NCBI GenBank assembly: GCA_016874535.1
Contig: VGUA01000010.1
Coordinates: 1 to 54,177, forward strand
From: Gammaproteobacteria bacterium
Lineage (GTDB): Bacteria > Pseudomonadota > Gammaproteobacteria > Ga0077536
DNA: 54,177 nucleotides
Direction: 5' to 3'
Made by a program: the position numbers and the translations under genes. Every line of letters starts with the position of its first letter. Position 1 is the stretch's first letter. This document shows, in pieces, positions 4,162-13,029 of the stretch. The notes under the pieces are model-generated. The model was not told the origin of the DNA and ran no database searches. It saw only the letters and a list, made by a program, of their open reading frames with translations.

Positions 4162-4668
4162 ATGCACAGCCCCCGTCTACCTCTCCTGTTGCTGACACTT
4201 CTGCTCCAGTGCCACTTCGCTGCATGGGCAGGCGCTGACTGTTATTCCGACAGGGAATGCAGCGGCGGGGTGTGCCGCTCGGGGATTTGCACTAATGCGG
4301 GCGGTGAATGTTATTCGGACCGGGAGTGTCCGGGCGGCGTTTGCCGGTCGGGACAGTGCACCACGGCCGGTGGGCGCTGCTACTCGGATCGGGAATGTGA
4401 TGGTGGGGTGTGCCGCTCGGGGAGTTGCACCGATGCGGGCGGTGAATGTTACTCGGACCGCGAGTGTCCGGGCGGCGTGTGCCGGTCGGGGCAATGCACC
4501 ACGGCCGGTGGGCGCTGCTACTCGGACCGGGAATGTGACGGTGGAATTTGTCGTTCGGGCCGTTGCACCAATGCAGGCGGTGAGTGTTACTCGGACAGGG
4601 AATGTTCCGGCGGTGTCTGCCGAGGGGGGCGCTGCACAACGTCCCGAGGTTTCGAATCCCATCGTTGA
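4162..4668 (+). CDS. Secreted Cys-rich repeat protein (six 23-residue repeats)
   Basis: This 168-residue protein has a signal peptide (MHSPRLPLLLL onward, cleavage near AWAGA at residues 21-25). The mature protein is almost entirely six repeats of 23 residues with the pattern xCYSDRECxGGVCRSGxCTxAGG (residues 26-163), then FESHR. Each repeat has four Cys at fixed spacing, 24 in all, so each unit can be closed by two disulfides. Only a few positions vary. The pattern resembles small disulfide-rich extracellular modules of the Dickkopf-like or EB type found in some bacterial secreted proteins. Target and function are unknown. It needs oxidative folding in the periplasm; a DsbB gene lies elsewhere in the window. 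Confidence 0.8.
   Translation: MHSPRLPLLLLTLLLQCHFAAWAGADCYSDRECSGGVCRSGICTNAGGECYSDRECPGGVCRSGQCTTAGGRCYSDRECDGGVCRSGSCTDAGGECYSDRECPGGVCRSGQCTTAGGRCYSDRECDGGICRSGRCTNAGGECYSDRECSGGVCRGGRCTTSRGFESHR
4237..4650 (+). repeat. Six tandem 69-bp coding repeats with a 138-bp higher-order unit
   Basis: Six 69-bp units run without gaps inside the Cys-rich gene, in frame because 69 is divisible by three. Units 2+3 and units 4+5 are near copies of each other (both read ECYSDRECPGGVCRSGQCT then RCYSDRECDGG), so the array seems to have grown by duplication of a 138-bp pair. Such arrays can change copy number by slippage or recombination without breaking the frame. Confidence 0.9.
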
Positions 4669-4784: not shown

Positions 4785-6218
4785 GTGAGTTCGCTCTATC
4801 ACAATACCTTCAAAGACATGATGAACGACGTGGTGGCTGCCGGCAGCTGCTGCGAATGCGGAAGCTGCGTGCTGGTGTGCCCGCACAACGTGATCGAGTA
4901 CATCGACGGCAAGCCCAAGCAGACCGCCAAGGAAAGCGCGGCCTTCGATTACTGCGGCATCAGCGAAGGCGTGGGCTGCGATGTCTGTGCTTCGGTCTGC
5001 CCGCGCCTGTGGCCCCGCGAACAGCATCTGCGCGATGTGCAGTTTGGCAACGATCGCGGCTACGAAGGGGTGTTTGGCGTGTACCGCCACATCTTCGTCG
5101 CCCGCACGCGGCGGGATGACATCCTGCAGCGCGCGCAGGACGGTGGCATCGTCACCGCACTGCTGGCCTGGGCCCGCGAGGCAGGCGAGATTGACGGGGC
5201 GGTCGTCTCCGCCGTCGGCGAGAACGATGATCCTTGCTTCCCCACACCCAAGGTCATGACCGAGGTGGAGGAGATCAAGTCCAGCGCCAGCAGCTGGTAC
5301 ACCTACTGTCCGAACAACCTCGCCCTTGCCGAAGCCGAAGAAAAAGATCTTAAACAGGTGGCCTTTGTCGGCGTGCCCTGCCAGATCACGCCGCTCAGCA
5401 AGATGACCTATGTTGACCCCAGCATCCTGCTCGCAGCCAAGAAGAAGCCGCAGATCGTGTCCCGCCAACGCGGCTTCATGAAGGGTTATGCCGAACGTCT
5501 GTCCTTCAATGTCGGGCTCTTCTGCACCGAGGTGTTCCGCCCGGAACTGATGACCGAACGCATCGAGCAGCAGATGGGCATTCCGCTCACCGAGGTGAGC
5601 AAGTTCAACGTGAAGGGCGAGGTCCTCATCTACAAGAAGGATGGCGACATCGCGCGCATCCCGCTGGAAGAGGCCATGCACGAATACCAGCGGCCTGAGT
5701 GCAAACACTGCGGGGATTTCTCGGCTGAGCTCGCGGATATCGCCTGCGGCGGCGTGGGCACGGATCAGGCGACGATCGTCGTCCTCCGCACCCAGCGCGG
5801 TGAGGATATCTGGCGCAAGTTCGAGGCTGCGGGCCTCGTCGATGTGTGGCCCATTCAGGAAAACAAGAAAGCCTGGAACATCCTGCAGCGTTTGGCCCAG
5901 CGTCAACACGATCGCGTGCCGGTCACCACGCTGCGCAATGGCACCATACCCGACCTCCCGCAGTACTCACCCTTCGAGGAGCATCAGTTCTCACTGGCGC
6001 AGATCGCGCACACCGCCAAGTCCGCCGAGGATATCGAGGCCGCACTGGTGGCCGCCTACGCCGGTGGGCCGCGTCCGCTGGAAGTGATTGGCTACATGGC
6101 CGGGCAGCCCATCCCGGGTGATCCGGGTGAGCCGCCTCCGGGTGAGAAGCGCAAACTGCCGCCTCCGCCGCGCCCCGATCAGGGCGGTGCGCCTCCGGGC
6201 TGGACGCCAGCGGCCTGA
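4785..6218 (+). CDS. FrhB-type Fe-S flavoprotein (coenzyme F420 hydrogenase/dehydrogenase beta-like)
   Basis: This 477-residue protein starts at GTG 4785, preceded by GAGGA. It has an N-terminal [4Fe-4S] motif C22-x2-C25-x2-C28-x3-C32-P, a second Cys group (GCDVCASVCPR), the FrhB N-terminal signature around DGGIVTALLAWA, VPCQI in the middle, and the C-terminal CKHCGDFSAELADIACGGVG. The last 40 residues are Pro/Gly-rich and look disordered. Relatives pass electrons through FAD and Fe-S centres (FrhB, FdhB, hydroxymethyl-chlorophyllide reductase). No F420 synthesis gene or partner hydrogenase is visible, so cofactor and substrate are unknown. It probably acts in the cytoplasm with a ferredoxin-like partner. 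Confidence 0.85.
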   Translation: MSSLYHNTFKDMMNDVVAAGSCCECGSCVLVCPHNVIEYIDGKPKQTAKESAAFDYCGISEGVGCDVCASVCPRLWPREQHLRDVQFGNDRGYEGVFGVYRHIFVARTRRDDILQRAQDGGIVTALLAWAREAGEIDGAVVSAVGENDDPCFPTPKVMTEVEEIKSSASSWYTYCPNNLALAEAEEKDLKQVAFVGVPCQITPLSKMTYVDPSILLAAKKKPQIVSRQRGFMKGYAERLSFNVGLFCTEVFRPELMTERIEQQMGIPLTEVSKFNVKGEVLIYKKDGDIARIPLEEAMHEYQRPECKHCGDFSAELADIACGGVGTDQATIVVLRTQRGEDIWRKFEAAGLVDVWPIQENKKAWNILQRLAQRQHDRVPVTTLRNGTIPDLPQYSPFEEHQFSLAQIAHTAKSAEDIEAALVAAYAGGPRPLEVIGYMAGQPIPGDPGEPPPGEKRKLPPPPRPDQGGAPPGWTPAA

Positions 6219-6652: not shown

Positions 6653-8371
6653 TCAGGCTGCGCGCGCGGCCTTCAACACGCCATGGCGCAGCAGCTGGCC
6701 ACTGTGCCGGTGCGTCTCGCGGTCATCCTCGATGGTGACTTGCCCATTGACCAGGATATAGCGATAGCCCTTGGCGCGCTGGATGCGCCGCCATTCACCG
6801 CCGGGCAGGTCGTGGGCGATTTCTGCGGGGCAGATATCGAGACGGTCGTAGTCGTAGCAGATGATGTCGGCCGGCGCGCCCGGTCGGAGTACGCCGCGGT
6901 TCTGGAAGCCGGCTACCATGGCCGGCAGGGCACTGAGCCGCCAATGCGCTTCCTCCAGGCTCAACATGCCGTGCTCGCGCACAGCCTTGGTGAGGGTTTC
7001 TGTCGGGTAGCGCCCGGCAGTCAGGAACTTGGTGTGCGCGCCGCCATCGGACACACCCAACACCACGTAGGGATCATCGAAGATTTCCTTCATGTAGCCG
7101 GGATAGGCGTTGGTGCCATTGGCGTAGAACTCGGTCTTCAGTTTGTCGTGCACGGCGATGTCGAGCAGCGCATCCACGGGATGCTTGCCGGTGAGCTCGG
7201 CGACGTGGCTGATCAACATATCGCGGAACTGCTCTGTCTCCGGGCTGGCCGGACCGGTGACGACGAGATTCGGAATGCCGCTGGTGACCACGATGGGCAT
7301 CTGCGACTTGAGCGCAGCGCGGCGGGCAGGATCGGCCATCTTGGCCAGACGCTCCTCCACGGTGCCCAGGGTGACTTCGCGCCAAGCGGGTTTCTCATCC
7401 CACAGGTTCCAGTCTTCCAGGGTGAAGGCATAGCCGGCATCAGTGGTAAGGCCTTGGGCGTAGATGCGCAGGCCGCGCTCGCGGCACTCCTGCAGCCAGC
7501 GCAGGCCACCGCGATGGACTTCCGGTTTGTGGTCGTAGACCTGCAGCACGTTCCACAGCAGCGGGCGACCTGACAACTCGGTCAGGCGCTCCATGTGTCG
7601 TCGATCATGCTCGGCGGAATGCGAGGCGATGGTCATCTGCATGAAACCCTGGTTGCGCCGGCCGAGCACACGTGCGAAGGCCTCGCAGGTTTCGTCATGC
7701 ATCACATCCGTGACCATGGGGGTGCCATCGTAGTCGAGCTGTACCGCAGCCGGCCCGGAGGGCATCAGACGCTGCGCGGACCAACCGCAGCCGCCAGCAT
7801 CCAGCGATTCCTCCAGCAGACGGCAGAGCTCGGCTTCCTGGGCCGGCGTCGGCTTCTGGCCGGCCTTGGCGGCCTCCAGGCCCAGCACCCACACCAGCAT
7901 GGGGCCCACCGGCACGTAGGGGAGAAGATTGATGGCCTTGGGTGCCCGGTCCACGGAGTCCAGGAATTCGGGGAAGGTCACCCAGTCCCAAGGCATGCCT
8001 TGCTTCATGGCGGCATAGGGCACGGCTTCCACGCGCGTCATGCTCAGCATCGCGCGTTCACGCAGTTCCGGTTGCACCGGCGCGAAGCCGAATCCGCAGT
8101 TGCCGATCACGGCCGAGGTGATGCCGTGCCAGCTGGAGAGCGTGCAATAGGGGTCCCAGAAGAGCTGGGCATCGTAATGGGTGTGGAGGTCGACGAAGCC
8201 CGGCGCGACGATGAGTCCGCTGGCATCGATCATCCGCTTGGCCGCGTGGGCGGGTACTTGCCCCATCTCCGCAATCACGCCGTTCTTGATGGCGATATCG
8301 GCCCGATAGCGCGGCAGACGCGTACCGTCTATCACCAGCCCGTTCTTGATGACGAGATCATACTCAGCCAT
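6653..8371 (-). CDS. N-acyl-D-amino-acid deacylase family amidohydrolase
   Basis: The start at 8371 was chosen because GGGAGG lies just upstream and MAEYDLVIKNGLVIDG is the usual N-terminus of the family; the frame is open further upstream without meaning. The 572-residue protein has the metal-binding GFVDLHTHYDAQ (HxH), GNCGFGFAP with the Cys seen in D-aminoacylases, and the late SDGGAHTKF motif with a metal-site Asp. The C-terminal beta-sandwich returns with GVLRPGAPADI. Family members remove acyl groups from N-acyl-D-amino acids in the cytoplasm. The exact substrate cannot be told. It lies 77 bp behind the acyltransferase gene on the same strand. Confidence 0.85.
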   Translation of the reverse strand: MAEYDLVIKNGLVIDGTRLPRYRADIAIKNGVIAEMGQVPAHAAKRMIDASGLIVAPGFVDLHTHYDAQLFWDPYCTLSSWHGITSAVIGNCGFGFAPVQPELRERAMLSMTRVEAVPYAAMKQGMPWDWVTFPEFLDSVDRAPKAINLLPYVPVGPMLVWVLGLEAAKAGQKPTPAQEAELCRLLEESLDAGGCGWSAQRLMPSGPAAVQLDYDGTPMVTDVMHDETCEAFARVLGRRNQGFMQMTIASHSAEHDRRHMERLTELSGRPLLWNVLQVYDHKPEVHRGGLRWLQECRERGLRIYAQGLTTDAGYAFTLEDWNLWDEKPAWREVTLGTVEERLAKMADPARRAALKSQMPIVVTSGIPNLVVTGPASPETEQFRDMLISHVAELTGKHPVDALLDIAVHDKLKTEFYANGTNAYPGYMKEIFDDPYVVLGVSDGGAHTKFLTAGRYPTETLTKAVREHGMLSLEEAHWRLSALPAMVAGFQNRGVLRPGAPADIICYDYDRLDICPAEIAHDLPGGEWRRIQRAKGYRYILVNGQVTIEDDRETHRHSGQLLRHGVLKAARAA

Positions 8372-8448
8372 GGCAACCTCCCCTGCATTATTGTCGCACG
8401 AGCATACCTCCCCGAACGGGGGCGAGGTAGTCGGACGATGCCGGGGCG

Positions 8449-10281
8449 CTAGCCTTGGCGCGGCTGCGGGACGGGGTCTTCCATGCCGGCGACATGCAGG
8501 GCATGGAAGCGGCCGGCAAGTTCGGTCCCCATGTACTTGCGCAGCAGGGGGAGCTCGGTGCGGCGCATGTCCACCCACAGTAGGCAGTCGATGGAATTGC
8601 CGAACTGGTTGTCGATGTTGAAGCCGAGAATGCGGCCGCCCAGCTTGAGGTACTGCCTCAGAAGCACCGGCACGCCACGTTCGTCGGGCTCTACGGTGCC
8701 CAGCAGGTCGGCCACCAGACGCAGGTCGCCGTCGTCCAGATCAACCACCGAGGCTGCCGCATGCTCGCGCTCCCGGAAGGGGCGGCGTGGCTTGACCAGA
8801 CTGGCTCGCCTGAGCTCGAATTTATGGTGGCGCAGGAAGCGCACCAGGATTTGCTTCGAGATGGGATGGTAGTCGTTGCTGATGCTGACCGGCCCGAACA
8901 GGATCTGGTACTGCGGGCGCAGGGCCATATAGGTGGCAACACCTTTCCACAGCAGCAGGAGCGCGGAATAGCTGCGCTGGTAGGCCGGGGAGACGAAGGA
9001 CCGCCCAACTTCAATCGCGCGCGAGAGATCCGTTCCAAGCGCGGGGTCGAGCTTGAACAGGGAATGCACGTAGAGACCCTTGGGGCCGTATTGGCGCAGG
9101 ATTTCATCGGCATGACCCAGACGATAGCCGCCCACAACCAGGCGCTTGCGCGAATCCCAGACGAACAGGTGGGTGTAGTAGGTATCGAAGAGGTCCAAGT
9201 CCGAGCGCTTGCCCGTGCCTTCACCCACCTCGCGGAAGGACACTTCGCGCAATCGCCCGATTTCCTGCAGCAGCCAGGGGATCTGCCCCGAAGCCGCATG
9301 CCACACCTGGAACTGCCCACTGGTCATGATGCACTGGCCGGGAGGAAGCGAGCGGATCTCGTCCTCGATGACCTCAGAATCCACCGCGTCACTCAGAGAT
9401 TCTTCGGGGCGCCGCGGCGAACCGGCCCGGCCCAGAACCAGTCGGGCGGTGGGCCGCTCCGCGAGCAGATAGGTCTTGGTGCGCAGATAGCGCGTGACCT
9501 GCGTGCGGTCAGGCAATCCCGCAAGCACTTCGGGTTCGATGGGGGTGCCGAAGCGCAGATCGATCTGCCGGTCACGCGCATTGAGCATCTCGCGTGCCAG
9601 CAGGGCGGTGCGCAGGCGTGGATGAATCAGGCCTGCCAGCTGGAACCAGAGGCTGTTGCGGCCGCCGATATGACAGGGCACTACCGGCACGCCGGTCTGG
9701 GCCGCGAGCCGGGCGATGCCGCGATCCCACTCCGGATCGATCACGCGACGGGTCCGCCAGTCGACGCTCGACACTTCGCCACCCGGGAACATGACGAGCA
9801 GGCCGCCCTGCTTGAGCCAGGCGAGCGCTTCGCGGGCGGCACTGGAATTGAAACGGCGGGCCTCGTTGCCACCGAAAGGATTCACCTTGAGGAACAGTGG
9901 CCCGAGTTCCTGGAAGCTCGCGAGGAAATGGTTGGCGAGGAAGCGCACATCCGGACGCCGCTGGAGCAGTACCTCCATCAGGATCAGTCCATCGAGCCCG
10001 CCATGCGGGTGATTGGCAATGAGCAGGCATCCGCCCTCAGCCGGAATGAGGTCCAGTTCGTCGGCCTCGAAAAGCGGGGTGACGCCGAGCTCCTCCAGCG
10101 CCAGCCCCGCGAACTGCGCTGGCGTCTCGGCCGCGGGAATCCGGTGGTAGCGCCGAGTCAGCGACGAGAAGCCCAGCGCGGAATCCGCGAGGCGGGTAAT
10201 CATTCGGCGCAGTCGGGCGGGCCAGCGCGGCAGATAGGGGCCTACGCTGAAAGTCGTGCGGTCGGTCCTGGAGTCGGGCAT
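8449..10281 (-). CDS. olsF: OlsF-like bifunctional acyltransferase (ornithine lipid synthesis)
   Basis: This 610-residue protein has two acyltransferase parts. Residues about 50-270 are PlsC-like, with NHPHGGLDG (N90-H91), RFLANHFLAS and FPGGEVSS (residues 165-172). Residues about 310-590 resemble OlsB-type ornithine N-acyltransferases of the GNAT-like class (FDTYYTHLFVWD, VVGGYRLG, GRSFVSPAYQRSYSALLLLW). OlsF of Serratia is known to carry both activities and to make ornithine lipid alone, first N-acylating ornithine and then adding the ester-linked chain. Length and order fit that enzyme. A related aminolipid head group is possible. It is divergent from the ferritin-like gene and upstream of the amidohydrolase. 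Confidence 0.75.
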   Translation of the reverse strand: MPDSRTDRTTFSVGPYLPRWPARLRRMITRLADSALGFSSLTRRYHRIPAAETPAQFAGLALEELGVTPLFEADELDLIPAEGGCLLIANHPHGGLDGLILMEVLLQRRPDVRFLANHFLASFQELGPLFLKVNPFGGNEARRFNSSAAREALAWLKQGGLLVMFPGGEVSSVDWRTRRVIDPEWDRGIARLAAQTGVPVVPCHIGGRNSLWFQLAGLIHPRLRTALLAREMLNARDRQIDLRFGTPIEPEVLAGLPDRTQVTRYLRTKTYLLAERPTARLVLGRAGSPRRPEESLSDAVDSEVIEDEIRSLPPGQCIMTSGQFQVWHAASGQIPWLLQEIGRLREVSFREVGEGTGKRSDLDLFDTYYTHLFVWDSRKRLVVGGYRLGHADEILRQYGPKGLYVHSLFKLDPALGTDLSRAIEVGRSFVSPAYQRSYSALLLLWKGVATYMALRPQYQILFGPVSISNDYHPISKQILVRFLRHHKFELRRASLVKPRRPFREREHAAASVVDLDDGDLRLVADLLGTVEPDERGVPVLLRQYLKLGGRILGFNIDNQFGNSIDCLLWVDMRRTELPLLRKYMGTELAGRFHALHVAGMEDPVPQPRQG

Positions 10282-10543
10282 CCGGGGGTCAGTCCTGAGA
10301 GCGGGAGTGGAGGGGAGGACGCACGATGACGGCAGTGAGGGCCGAGGAGCGTGCGGCGTGCTTCGCGCTTCCCGCGCCGGCCGTGGTTAGAATGTGGGCC
10401 ATGAAAAAGTCCTCGCATCTATCGGCGGCCGGGCGCAAGTCCGAGCTGCGGTCCCTTCGGCGGGCGACACTATACGCCGCTTGTTTTGCCACTGCATGCC
10501 TGAATCCCACTTTAACCAGCGCTGATGGAACAGGAAGCACGCC

Positions 10544-11371
10544 ATGAGCCAGACCTGGACCCTCGATGACATGCCCTGGTCCGCGCTCGATCCGGCGCGG
10601 GTGGATGCGGAGCTCCTGGAGACCGTCAAGACAGCGGCACTGGTGGAGGCCAACAGCGCCGATTACGTGACCTACCTCTGCAATGTCTTCGCCGATGATC
10701 CCGCCTTTGTGGAAGCCGCACGCGTGTGGGGGGAGGAGGAGGCCCAGCATGGCGCTGCACTGGCGCGTTGGGCCGAGCGGGTGGACCCCACCTTCGATTT
10801 CGCGGCAAGTCTTGCCCGCTTCCGGGCCGGCTACAGCCTGCCGCTGGAGACGACCACCTCGGTCCGGGGTTCCCGTACAGGCGAGCTGGTCGCCCGCTGC
10901 GTGGTCGAGTCCGGCACTTGTTCGTTCTATTCGGCGCTGCGCGACAGCACCACCGAACCTGTGCTGCGCCGAATCTGCCATGCCATCGCGCAGGATGAGG
11001 CTGCCCACTACCGCCTGTTCCATGTGCATTTGCGGCGCTATCTCGCCGGGCAGCGGCTGGGCTTCTTGAAACGCCTGAAAATCGCGCTGGGACGAGTGCA
11101 GGAGACTGGAGACGACGAGCTCGCCTATGCCTACTTCAGTGCGAACGTGTGGCCGGCGGCGGATGCCCGCTACGAACGGGAAGCCTGCGCGCAGGCCTAC
11201 TGGCGTCGAGCCATGGCCCGCTATCAGCGTCAGCATGTGCGCAGTGCCGCCCACATGATCGCCGCGGCCGTGGATCTGCGTCCCGGTGGCCGTTGGTTGG
11301 ATTGGGTGGTGGCTGGCGTCTGGAATCTTCTGCAATGGCGCTTGGCGCGCCTGCGTCGCGTCGCTGCCTGA
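10544..11371 (+). CDS. Ferritin-like diiron protein, unknown substrate
   Basis: This 275-residue soluble protein shows the four-helix diiron pattern: E35 (LVEANSADY), E66-x2-H69 (EEEAQHG), a Glu in CVVESGTCSFY, and a second ExxH in DEAAHYRLF. This is the set found in ferritin-like oxidases and acyl-ACP desaturase relatives. The C-terminal 100 residues are basic and may touch membranes. AGGAA before the ATG supports the start. It stands between an OlsF-like acyltransferase (divergent) and a fatty-acid-hydroxylase-family protein (convergent), which suggests O2-dependent lipid modification. The reaction is not known. Confidence 0.75.
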   Translation: MSQTWTLDDMPWSALDPARVDAELLETVKTAALVEANSADYVTYLCNVFADDPAFVEAARVWGEEEAQHGAALARWAERVDPTFDFAASLARFRAGYSLPLETTTSVRGSRTGELVARCVVESGTCSFYSALRDSTTEPVLRRICHAIAQDEAAHYRLFHVHLRRYLAGQRLGFLKRLKIALGRVQETGDDELAYAYFSANVWPAADARYEREACAQAYWRRAMARYQRQHVRSAAHMIAAAVDLRPGGRWLDWVVAGVWNLLQWRLARLRRVAA

Positions 11372-11408
11372 AGCAGGCCCGGGCTCCAATCCCGGCGCCG
11401 CCGGCGTT

Positions 11409-12290
11409 TCAGCTCTCCTGCTGGTAGCGCTTCCACACGAACGGTACCCACAGCTGCCGCAGCCAGCGGCTCGGCATCTTCTCGCGAATACCGATCTCGC
11501 CCAGCAGAGCCACCGGCTTGATGAAGAACGTGCCGAAGAGCTGATCCCACAACACCAGGTTCTGGCCATAGTTGTTGTTGCCTTCCTCCAGCCGTGTGGA
11601 ATGGTGCCAGCGATGCAGGTTGGGCGTGTTGAAGAACCAGCTCAGCACGCCACAACGCGTGTCCACGTTGCAGTGGGTGAGGATGCCGATATAGGCGGTG
11701 ATCGCGCTCACCAGGATGATTGCGTCCATGGAGATCCCGGTGACCAGCAGGAAAGGCACGCTCGCAAGTACGCTCAGGTTGGAGTCCACGAAATGGAAAC
11801 GCCCGGTGTTCACCAGCCATAGTCGTCGCACGCTGTGGTGCACGGCATGAAAGCGCCACAGCAGCGGCCACTCGTGTGAAAAACGGTGCGCCCAGTAGAG
11901 GCCGAATTCGGCTGCCAGCAGGCCGGCTGCCGCCTGCCACAGCAAAGGCTGTCCCGCCAGCCAGGTTGCTTCCCGATGCTGGAAGAACGGCAGCCCCATC
12001 AGCTGCACGATGGTGAACTGCACCAGTCCCTTGTTCAGCAAGGTGTGGCCCAGATCTGCCGGAATCTGCCCATCGTTGCGCTGCCAGTCCTTGCGGTAGG
12101 GCAGCACCCGCTCGAGCACCAGCAGCCAGCCGATGATCCACAGGTAAGACAGGTTGAAGAAGACGAGCTCCGGCTTGACCGCAAGGCCAAACAGCTCGAG
12201 ATCTCCCTCGTGGCGGAAGCCGAAGCTCAGAATGAAGCAGCAGCTGACCAGCAGAAATGGCCAGGCGGCAAGGCTCAGGAAGGATTTCAT
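11409..12290 (-). CDS. Sterol desaturase/fatty acid hydroxylase superfamily membrane protein (OlsE-like?)
   Basis: This 293-residue protein has four to five hydrophobic segments and the three His boxes of the superfamily: HRFSH (residues 135-139), HAVHH (148-152) and a final HRWHH. These bind two irons in membrane-bound hydroxylases and desaturases. An extra THCN motif lies between. OlsE, which hydroxylates the ornithine part of ornithine lipids, belongs to this superfamily, so the nearby OlsF-like gene makes that activity attractive, but sterol, carotenoid or fatty-acyl substrates cannot be excluded. The gene is 47 bp downstream of a secreted-protein gene and convergent with the ferritin-like gene. 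Confidence 0.8.
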   Translation of the reverse strand: MKSFLSLAAWPFLLVSCCFILSFGFRHEGDLELFGLAVKPELVFFNLSYLWIIGWLLVLERVLPYRKDWQRNDGQIPADLGHTLLNKGLVQFTIVQLMGLPFFQHREATWLAGQPLLWQAAAGLLAAEFGLYWAHRFSHEWPLLWRFHAVHHSVRRLWLVNTGRFHFVDSNLSVLASVPFLLVTGISMDAIILVSAITAYIGILTHCNVDTRCGVLSWFFNTPNLHRWHHSTRLEEGNNNYGQNLVLWDQLFGTFFIKPVALLGEIGIREKMPSRWLRQLWVPFVWKRYQQES

Positions 12291-12336: not shown

Positions 12337-13029
12337 TCAGTCCGCGTCGGCGGGCAGCGCGCACCGCCGCCGGACCGCCGTGCTCACCTCGTACTCATCG
12401 CTCGCGGTGTCGCGGGCAAGGCCGCAGATCACGGAGGTCTCCACGTTCAGGCCACCTGCGCCCTGGGCGATATGGAATTCATAGCGCGGGCTGCAATTGC
12501 CACCACACCGCTCGTAGAGCTGTTTCCCGAGATCTCCTCGGCCCTGGCTGAATTCCATGACCCACGCGTTGAGCGCCTCCACGGACTTGAACTCTTGTGG
12601 GGGGAAACTCAGGGGCGCCTTGGTGGTGTCGGCCTCCAGAGTCAGGCAGAGCGGTGCCTGCTCGGCCTTGGGCAGGAACATCTTGGGCGCCACGCGATAC
12701 ACCACCTCCGGTGAGGCACTGGCAGTGCAACCTGAACCGCAGGCAGCGCCATCCACCTTCTCTCCACCGTCCAGCGCGTCCGAGAGCAGTTTGGCCGCCA
12801 CCGCCCGGATGGACTTCGGGTGCTCGGCCAAGTTGTAGAGGATGCCAGCCGAACCGGTGCGGGTTTCCAAGGGCTGCTCCGCCGAGGCCTCCGGACACTG
12901 GCCTGCAGTGGTGCCGCGAGCGGTGCCATCGAGGGGGCCATTGGCAAGCACGAAGGGCGCCGCGCTCAAGGCCAGAAGGCCCGGCAAGAAGACTGAAGAA
13001 CGCATGTGAAGGGTCTTGCTCCGGCTCAT
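12337..13029 (-). CDS. Secreted protein of unknown family
   Basis: This 230-residue protein has a signal peptide with a hydrophobic core near FLPGLLALSAAPFVL and likely cleavage after LAN (about residue 30). A second Met at residue 9 (13005) is an alternative start; neither has a good ribosome site. The mature part has eight Cys, two of them in CGSGC and others in CGGNC, so disulfides are likely. It is probably periplasmic or secreted. No known domain is recognised. It is followed by the hydroxylase gene on the same strand. Confidence 0.65.
   Translation of the reverse strand: MSRSKTLHMRSSVFLPGLLALSAAPFVLANGPLDGTARGTTAGQCPEASAEQPLETRTGSAGILYNLAEHPKSIRAVAAKLLSDALDGGEKVDGAACGSGCTASASPEVVYRVAPKMFLPKAEQAPLCLTLEADTTKAPLSFPPQEFKSVEALNAWVMEFSQGRGDLGKQLYERCGGNCSPRYEFHIAQGAGGLNVETSVICGLARDTASDEYEVSTAVRRRCALPADAD

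Follow-up and report, generated by a model that had tools for sequence, protein, structure and literature searches.

The window analysed here is a stretch of 54,177 nucleotides from a gammaproteobacterium of the Ga0077536 lineage (GenBank assembly GCA_016874535.1, contig VGUA01000010.1, positions 1–54,177). Towards one end of the window lies a block of four genes, coding for an OlsF-like acyltransferase, a soluble diiron protein whose gene (10544–11371, plus strand) is here named ferL, an OlsE-like membrane hydroxylase and a conserved, probably exported protein. An original prediction, made from the sequence, had described the first three as a possible ornithine-lipid modification cluster; they were found in the places it had assigned them (8449–10281, 10544–11371 and 11409–12290), and their description as a two-domain OlsF-like enzyme, a diiron protein and an OlsE-like hydroxylase was confirmed by profiles, Pfam domains and conserved residues. 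The block consists of the following features:

8449–10281, minus strand: OlsF-like bifunctional acyltransferase, 610 amino acids (profile, Pfam domains and conserved residues)
10282–10543, no strand: divergent intergenic region between the olsF-like gene and ferL, 262 base pairs (bp)
10544–11371, plus strand: ferL, soluble diiron protein with a predicted acyl-ACP (acyl carrier protein) desaturase fold, 275 amino acids (profile, Pfam and predicted structure)
11409–12290, minus strand: OlsE-like membrane hydroxylase of the fatty-acid hydroxylase/sterol desaturase superfamily, 293 amino acids (eight-histidine motifs)
12337–13029, minus strand: fourth gene (hyp), conserved, family not assigned, product probably exported, 230 amino acids (synteny)

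The genes do not form one operon. The olsF-like gene and ferL are divergent and 262 bp apart, ferL and the olsE-like gene are convergent and separated by 37 bp, and the fourth gene is co-directional with the olsE-like gene, upstream of it by 46 bp. The best Pho-box score in the intergenic region between the olsF-like gene and ferL was no better than that of shuffled sequence, so PhoB control of the block is without support.

The OlsF-like protein combines two acyltransferase domains in a single chain, a PlsC-like O-acyltransferase domain (PF19576) in the amino-terminal half and an N-acyltransferase domain (PF13444) in the carboxy-terminal half, in the order also present in OlsF of the Serratia/Flavobacterium type. 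The NCBIfam OlsF profile matches residues 54–577, covering 524 residues, with E = 9e-113 and 378 bits; the protein is called OlsF-like because the score lies below the equivalog cut-off. The NHPHG.LDG motif of the amino-terminal domain is invariant bar one position in an alignment of homologues. By homology, the protein would N-acylate an amino acid, probably ornithine, with the 3-hydroxyacyl chain of an acyl-ACP, and would then O-acylate that 3-hydroxyacyl chain.

The OlsE-like protein is matched by the NCBIfam OlsE profile over residues 3–289 (E = 2.3e-85, 286 bits), again below the equivalog cut-off, hence its name, and also by the Pfam family FA_hydroxylase. Its eight histidines, arranged in three motifs (H135/H139, H148/H151/H152 and H226/H229/H230), are invariant among 14 orthologues. 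The full-length profile match, the FA_hydroxylase domain and the eight-histidine motifs are shared with OlsE, the ornithine head-group hydroxylase of Rhizobium and Agrobacterium, and the membrane protein would, by homology, hydroxylate a lipid head group. Unlike the gene for OlsE, the olsE-like gene adjoins an olsF-like gene and that of an additional, probably exported protein. The acyltransferase and the hydroxylase each belong to a known kind or stand close to one.

The fourth protein has a hydrophobic amino-terminus and conserved cysteines, and is without a match in Pfam or NCBIfam. Its gene travels with the block and is kept beside the olsE-like gene in other genera. A family profile built for it finds members in 30 genomes of the gammaproteobacterial family to which the window's genome belongs (family f1 hereafter) and no match in any relative outside f1. 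The AlphaFold2 model has a mean confidence (predicted local distance difference test, pLDDT) of 83, with a poor amino-terminus; comparison with the PDB gave no convincing fold match (best Z 4), and therefore no function can be read from the structure of the fourth protein. In two genomes a second copy of the gene lies at most 0.8 kilobases (kb) from another gene of the OlsE superfamily (G011:C28:202798-204170 and G018:C99:34022-35110). Because these second copies adjoin other OlsE-superfamily genes, the fourth protein may pair with the membrane hydroxylase more than with FerL, and the arrangement suggests that it is a general partner of OlsE-superfamily hydroxylases in f1. In the block, it would assist the OlsE-like hydroxylase as an accessory protein, possibly in the periplasm.

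FerL has six likely diiron ligands (E35, E66, H69, E122, E152 and H155), none of which varies among 21 homologues, including those of only 26–29% identity. Their order (E, ExxH, E, ExxH) matches the pattern of the acyl-ACP desaturases, and in alignment the EExxH and DExxH motifs fall on their counterparts in the plant enzymes, the remaining two glutamate ligands being assigned by order and not by superposition. A profile of the FerL family matches the acyl-ACP desaturase DesA2 of M. tuberculosis (E = 1.8e-7), and the Pfam family FA_desaturase_2 (PF03405) is matched by 20 of 21 members at E ≤ 1, the best at 7.6e-6; FerL of the window, taken alone, scores below the PF03405 gathering threshold (16 against 22.7 bits). 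The AlphaFold2 model of FerL (pLDDT 93.7, predicted template modelling score 0.92) has stearoyl-ACP desaturases as its top neighbours in the PDB (Z 18.7, root-mean-square deviation 3.5, 248 aligned residues). The R2 subunit of ribonucleotide reductase and the R2-like ligand-binding oxidases, which share the broad ferritin-like diiron superfamily with FerL, are weaker structural matches, with Z-scores of 15 or less.

No NCBIfam family matches FerL, and the only Pfam family above its cut-off for the window protein is Rubrerythrin (PF02915), marginally, with 23.5 against 22.8 bits; this match probably reflects the shared ExxH helices. Storage ferritin and Coq7 were considered as identities for FerL and set aside, both giving weak Pfam hits only, while the desaturase fold scores best. 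From its sequence and model, FerL is a protein with the predicted fold and likely metal ligands of the soluble acyl-ACP desaturases, not a storage ferritin, yet it is not filed as a desaturase by Pfam. The original prediction, which had called it ferritin-like, was correct in expecting a diiron protein, but the label is too vague for a protein whose sequence and model group it with the soluble acyl-ACP desaturases; its expectation of an ornithine-lipid or aminolipid locus with two oxygen-dependent enzymes of different diiron classes is supported. FerL shares the fold, the EExxH and DExxH motifs and the four-helix diiron core with acyl-ACP desaturases such as castor stearoyl-ACP desaturase and DesA2; it differs from them in being shorter, in having only 12–16% identity and in that its gene is kept with an aminolipid locus. 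Acyl-ACP desaturases act on acyl-ACP, the donor class of ornithine-lipid synthesis. The predicted placement among them favours an acyl chain over the head group as substrate of FerL, although a fold in common does not show which reaction it would catalyse.

Within f1, ferL is present in 26 of 36 genomes, with 53–100% identity, and all 26 also contain an olsE orthologue and an OlsF-like gene. None of the ten genomes without ferL has an olsE orthologue; three of them have OlsF alone (G013, G028 and G034) and seven lack all three genes. The joint presence or absence of ferL and the olsE orthologue across the 36 genomes gives a Fisher value of 4e-9, with no correction for descent. Most genomes keep the gene order of the window, in which ferL points away from the olsF-like gene and towards the olsE-like gene. 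As a synteny control, every window open reading frame of at least 100 amino acids was searched for in the sequence flanking ferL in relatives, roughly 8 kb to either side (less at contig ends); outside the genus of the window, the genes of the block were the only ones found again. As the block recurs in many f1 genera and the flanking genes do not, its conservation is not due to chance, the counts being uncorrected for shared descent.

The nearest relatives of ferL outside f1 are alphaproteobacterial. In 74 of the 80 best loci, the available sequence, up to 8 kb on either side, contains no olsF or olsE homologue. Many of the alphaproteobacterial genes are located downstream of atpC and before rppH- and ctpA-type genes, in the region of the ATP-synthase operon; in loci L041, L045, L047, L077 and others ferL directly follows atpC, a conserved place. 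In the phylogenetic tree, the ferL sequences of f1 form one clade (support 100/98) inside the alphaproteobacterial sequences, next to those of Rhodothalassium and relatives; the wider group including the latter has a support of 99/96, and distant gammaproteobacterial homologues fall far outside. The simplest reading is that ferL passed from an alphaproteobacterium to f1 and was then placed beside olsE and olsF, the direction of transfer being drawn from a tree rooted by midpoint. The ten proteins neighbouring distant gamma- and alphaproteobacterial homologues (about 31–37% identity) reveal no consistent link to lipids; they include a K+ transporter, an AI-2E-type transporter, a molybdopterin oxidoreductase, FdhD, a YjeF-type enzyme, two-component genes and a glycosyltransferase. 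In one alphaproteobacterial genome (G293:C1), ferL-like genes from diverged subfamilies, with 33–54% identity, number four or more.

Co-occurrence was analysed in 289 evenly drawn alphaproteobacterial genomes, with a clear ferL defined by E ≤ 1e-20 and an OlsB-like gene by a PF13444 match of E ≤ 1e-10. A clear ferL is present in 106 of them, and 102 of these 106 have an OlsB-like gene, versus 81 of the 183 ferL-negative genomes (Fisher 1e-21). This shows that ferL is nearly confined to alphaproteobacteria capable of making aminolipids; a need of FerL for OlsB is not implied. Of the proximity of diiron-gene homologues to olsF or olsB, which the original prediction had called for, that to olsF was found in f1; the alphaproteobacterial loci examined have no olsF or olsE homologue nearby, although an OlsB-like gene is nearly always in the same genome.

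Taken together, we read the block as a locus for the synthesis and oxidation of ornithine lipid or a closely related aminolipid, a membrane lipid free of phosphorus, with FerL as the hydroxylase or desaturase of an acyl chain, and give this a probability of roughly 0.6. FerL would be a soluble, oxygen-activating diiron enzyme, and its substrate could be an acyl-ACP, before OlsF uses the acyl chain, or a (lyso-)aminolipid. Several points weigh against this interpretation. The acyltransferase and the hydroxylase both miss the equivalog cut-offs of their profiles (378 against 620 bits for OlsF and 286 against 475 bits for OlsE), and therefore the head group and the position modified are uncertain. 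The alphaproteobacterial ferL genes are, in the loci examined, never near olsF or olsE homologues and have housekeeping neighbours, and the Fisher value for co-occurrence with OlsB ignores kinship and genome size, many of the ferL-negative genomes being small. The three-gene neighbourhood of the original prediction is conserved across the f1 genera, but the fourth gene had been missed, and in one genus (g4) OlsF is on another contig, with ferL, olsE and hyp still together. Acyl-ACP and (lyso-)lipid are not told apart as substrates of FerL. Finally, gene content, predicted fold, metal-ligand pattern, synteny and co-occurrence were observed, and the substrates and reactions of all the block proteins are inferred.

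A different head group is a rather unlikely alternative, in which the same enzymes act on another acyloxyacyl aminolipid, with lysine, glycine or some other amino acid. The sub-threshold OlsF score would fit it, as would the additional matches of the acyltransferase to the GlsB and GlsA profiles, and the OlsF of F. johnsoniae also makes lysine lipids (PMC4484230). However, the 378 bits obtained with OlsF are far above the 114 bits of GlsB and the 90 bits of GlsA, and a gene for an OlsE-like head-group hydroxylase is adjacent.

We consider it unlikely that FerL serves the membrane's fatty acids at large as an acyl-ACP desaturase, the position of its gene beside olsE and olsF in f1 being incidental or due to shared regulation. 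Acyl-ACP desaturases are its nearest relatives in fold and profile, and the housekeeping neighbourhood of the alphaproteobacterial copies also fits such an enzyme, but that the block, and the block alone, is kept over many genera argues otherwise, as do two further findings: none of the 36 f1 genomes has one of ferL and the olsE orthologue without the other, and among alphaproteobacteria ferL is nearly restricted to those with OlsB.

Another idea, itself a form of the acyl-chain oxidation we prefer, can only be put forward tentatively and is improbable as it stands: FerL may be a fatty-acyl 2-hydroxylase that places an alpha-hydroxyl group on the ester-linked (piggyback) chain, performing the task of OlsC, OlsD or LpxO without alpha-ketoglutarate. 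OlsC and OlsD belong to the alpha-ketoglutarate family PF05118. This family has no match in the window's genome, the proteins of the block included. Of 40 alphaproteobacterial genomes with ferL, 27 also have no match to it, including four genomes of Neoroseomonas, two of Plastoroseomonas and the genome of Roseiterribacter TMPK1; an OlsB-like gene is present in 39 of the 40. The three known ornithine-lipid hydroxylases act on the head group (OlsE), the ester-linked chain (OlsC) or the amide-linked chain (OlsD) (PMC3972451). C18:1 2-OH is described as a major fatty acid of Neoroseomonas and Plastoroseomonas (PMC8414978), and Roseiterribacter TMPK1 contains 2.6% of it, plus aminolipids listed as unidentified (PMC11164329). 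2-Hydroxy acids are thus formed in these taxa although the known enzyme class is absent, and ferL is a candidate for the task. Against this, the correlation involves few taxa, and all those scored for 2-hydroxy acids bear ferL; other families, such as P450 and PF04116, could form 2-hydroxy acids; a PF05118 gene is also present in 13 of the 40 alphaproteobacterial genomes and in many f1 genomes; 2-OH C18:1 may reside in other lipids; and the nearest fold relatives of FerL are desaturases, not known 2-hydroxylases. The proposed reaction, acyl-chain hydroxylation, is that of OlsC, OlsD and LpxO (the first two on ornithine lipids), enzymes unrelated to FerL in fold and cofactor. Bolder, and likewise improbable, is that FerL founds a new class of lipid hydroxylase, with a diiron site and the desaturase fold, that forms 2-hydroxylated acyl chains in ornithine lipids and was transferred into f1, where it joined olsF and olsE; if true, it would explain the 2-hydroxy-C18:1 of relatives in the Acetobacteraceae and Rhodospirillales without an OlsC/OlsD/LpxO-type gene.

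Least probable, and very unlikely in our view, is that FerL works as a peroxidase of the rubrerythrin kind or in iron handling, protecting the OlsE-like enzyme or supplying it with iron: the Rubrerythrin match, barely above its cut-off, speaks for it, while the larger multi-helix desaturase fold, the lack in a Pfam scan of the rubredoxin domain that forms the carboxy-terminal domain of classical rubrerythrins, and the occurrence of OlsE-superfamily genes elsewhere without ferL speak against it.

Directly adjoining the olsF-like gene, the window contains a gene for an Amidohydro_3 protein of the amidohydrolase superfamily (6653–8578, minus strand); the reading frame as listed overlaps the olsF-like gene, so that translation probably begins at a more internal start. 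It was rejected as a member of the block, being absent beside the block in relatives, the same genus included. At lower positions, 4785–6218 (plus strand) codes for an FrhB/FdhB-like iron-sulphur protein, resembling the coenzyme F420 hydrogenase beta subunit, whose 88% identical counterpart in a congener (L125) also adjoins the block, and 4162–4668 (plus strand) for a small protein with tandem cysteine repeats (CYSDRECxGGVCRSGxC) and a signal-like amino-terminus.

What is new at this locus is the presence, in a presumed ornithine-lipid setting, of a conserved soluble diiron protein of predicted desaturase fold and of a probably exported protein. In open-licence papers, no coupling of an acyl-ACP desaturase with ornithine lipid was found, nor any biochemical work on the proteins of the block, nor any aminolipid role for a ferritin-like or acyl-ACP-desaturase-like protein, the last in agreement with the original prediction that the diiron protein has no described role of this kind. 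Hydroxylated ornithine lipids have been linked to resistance to stress (acid and heat) and to host interaction (PMC3972451), and aminolipid hydroxylation is without explanation in some bacteria, for instance Pseudopedobacter saltans (PMC4484230). The locus offers a candidate hydroxylation enzyme from an unexpected protein class and with a conserved neighbourhood, and ferL is present in many culturable alphaproteobacteria, including Acetobacter, Neoroseomonas, Zavarzinia and Pelagibius. A lipid enzyme can go unnoticed under a label like 'ferritin-like' or 'rubrerythrin', and FerL may perform a hydroxylation step for which the enzyme is missing in many bacteria.

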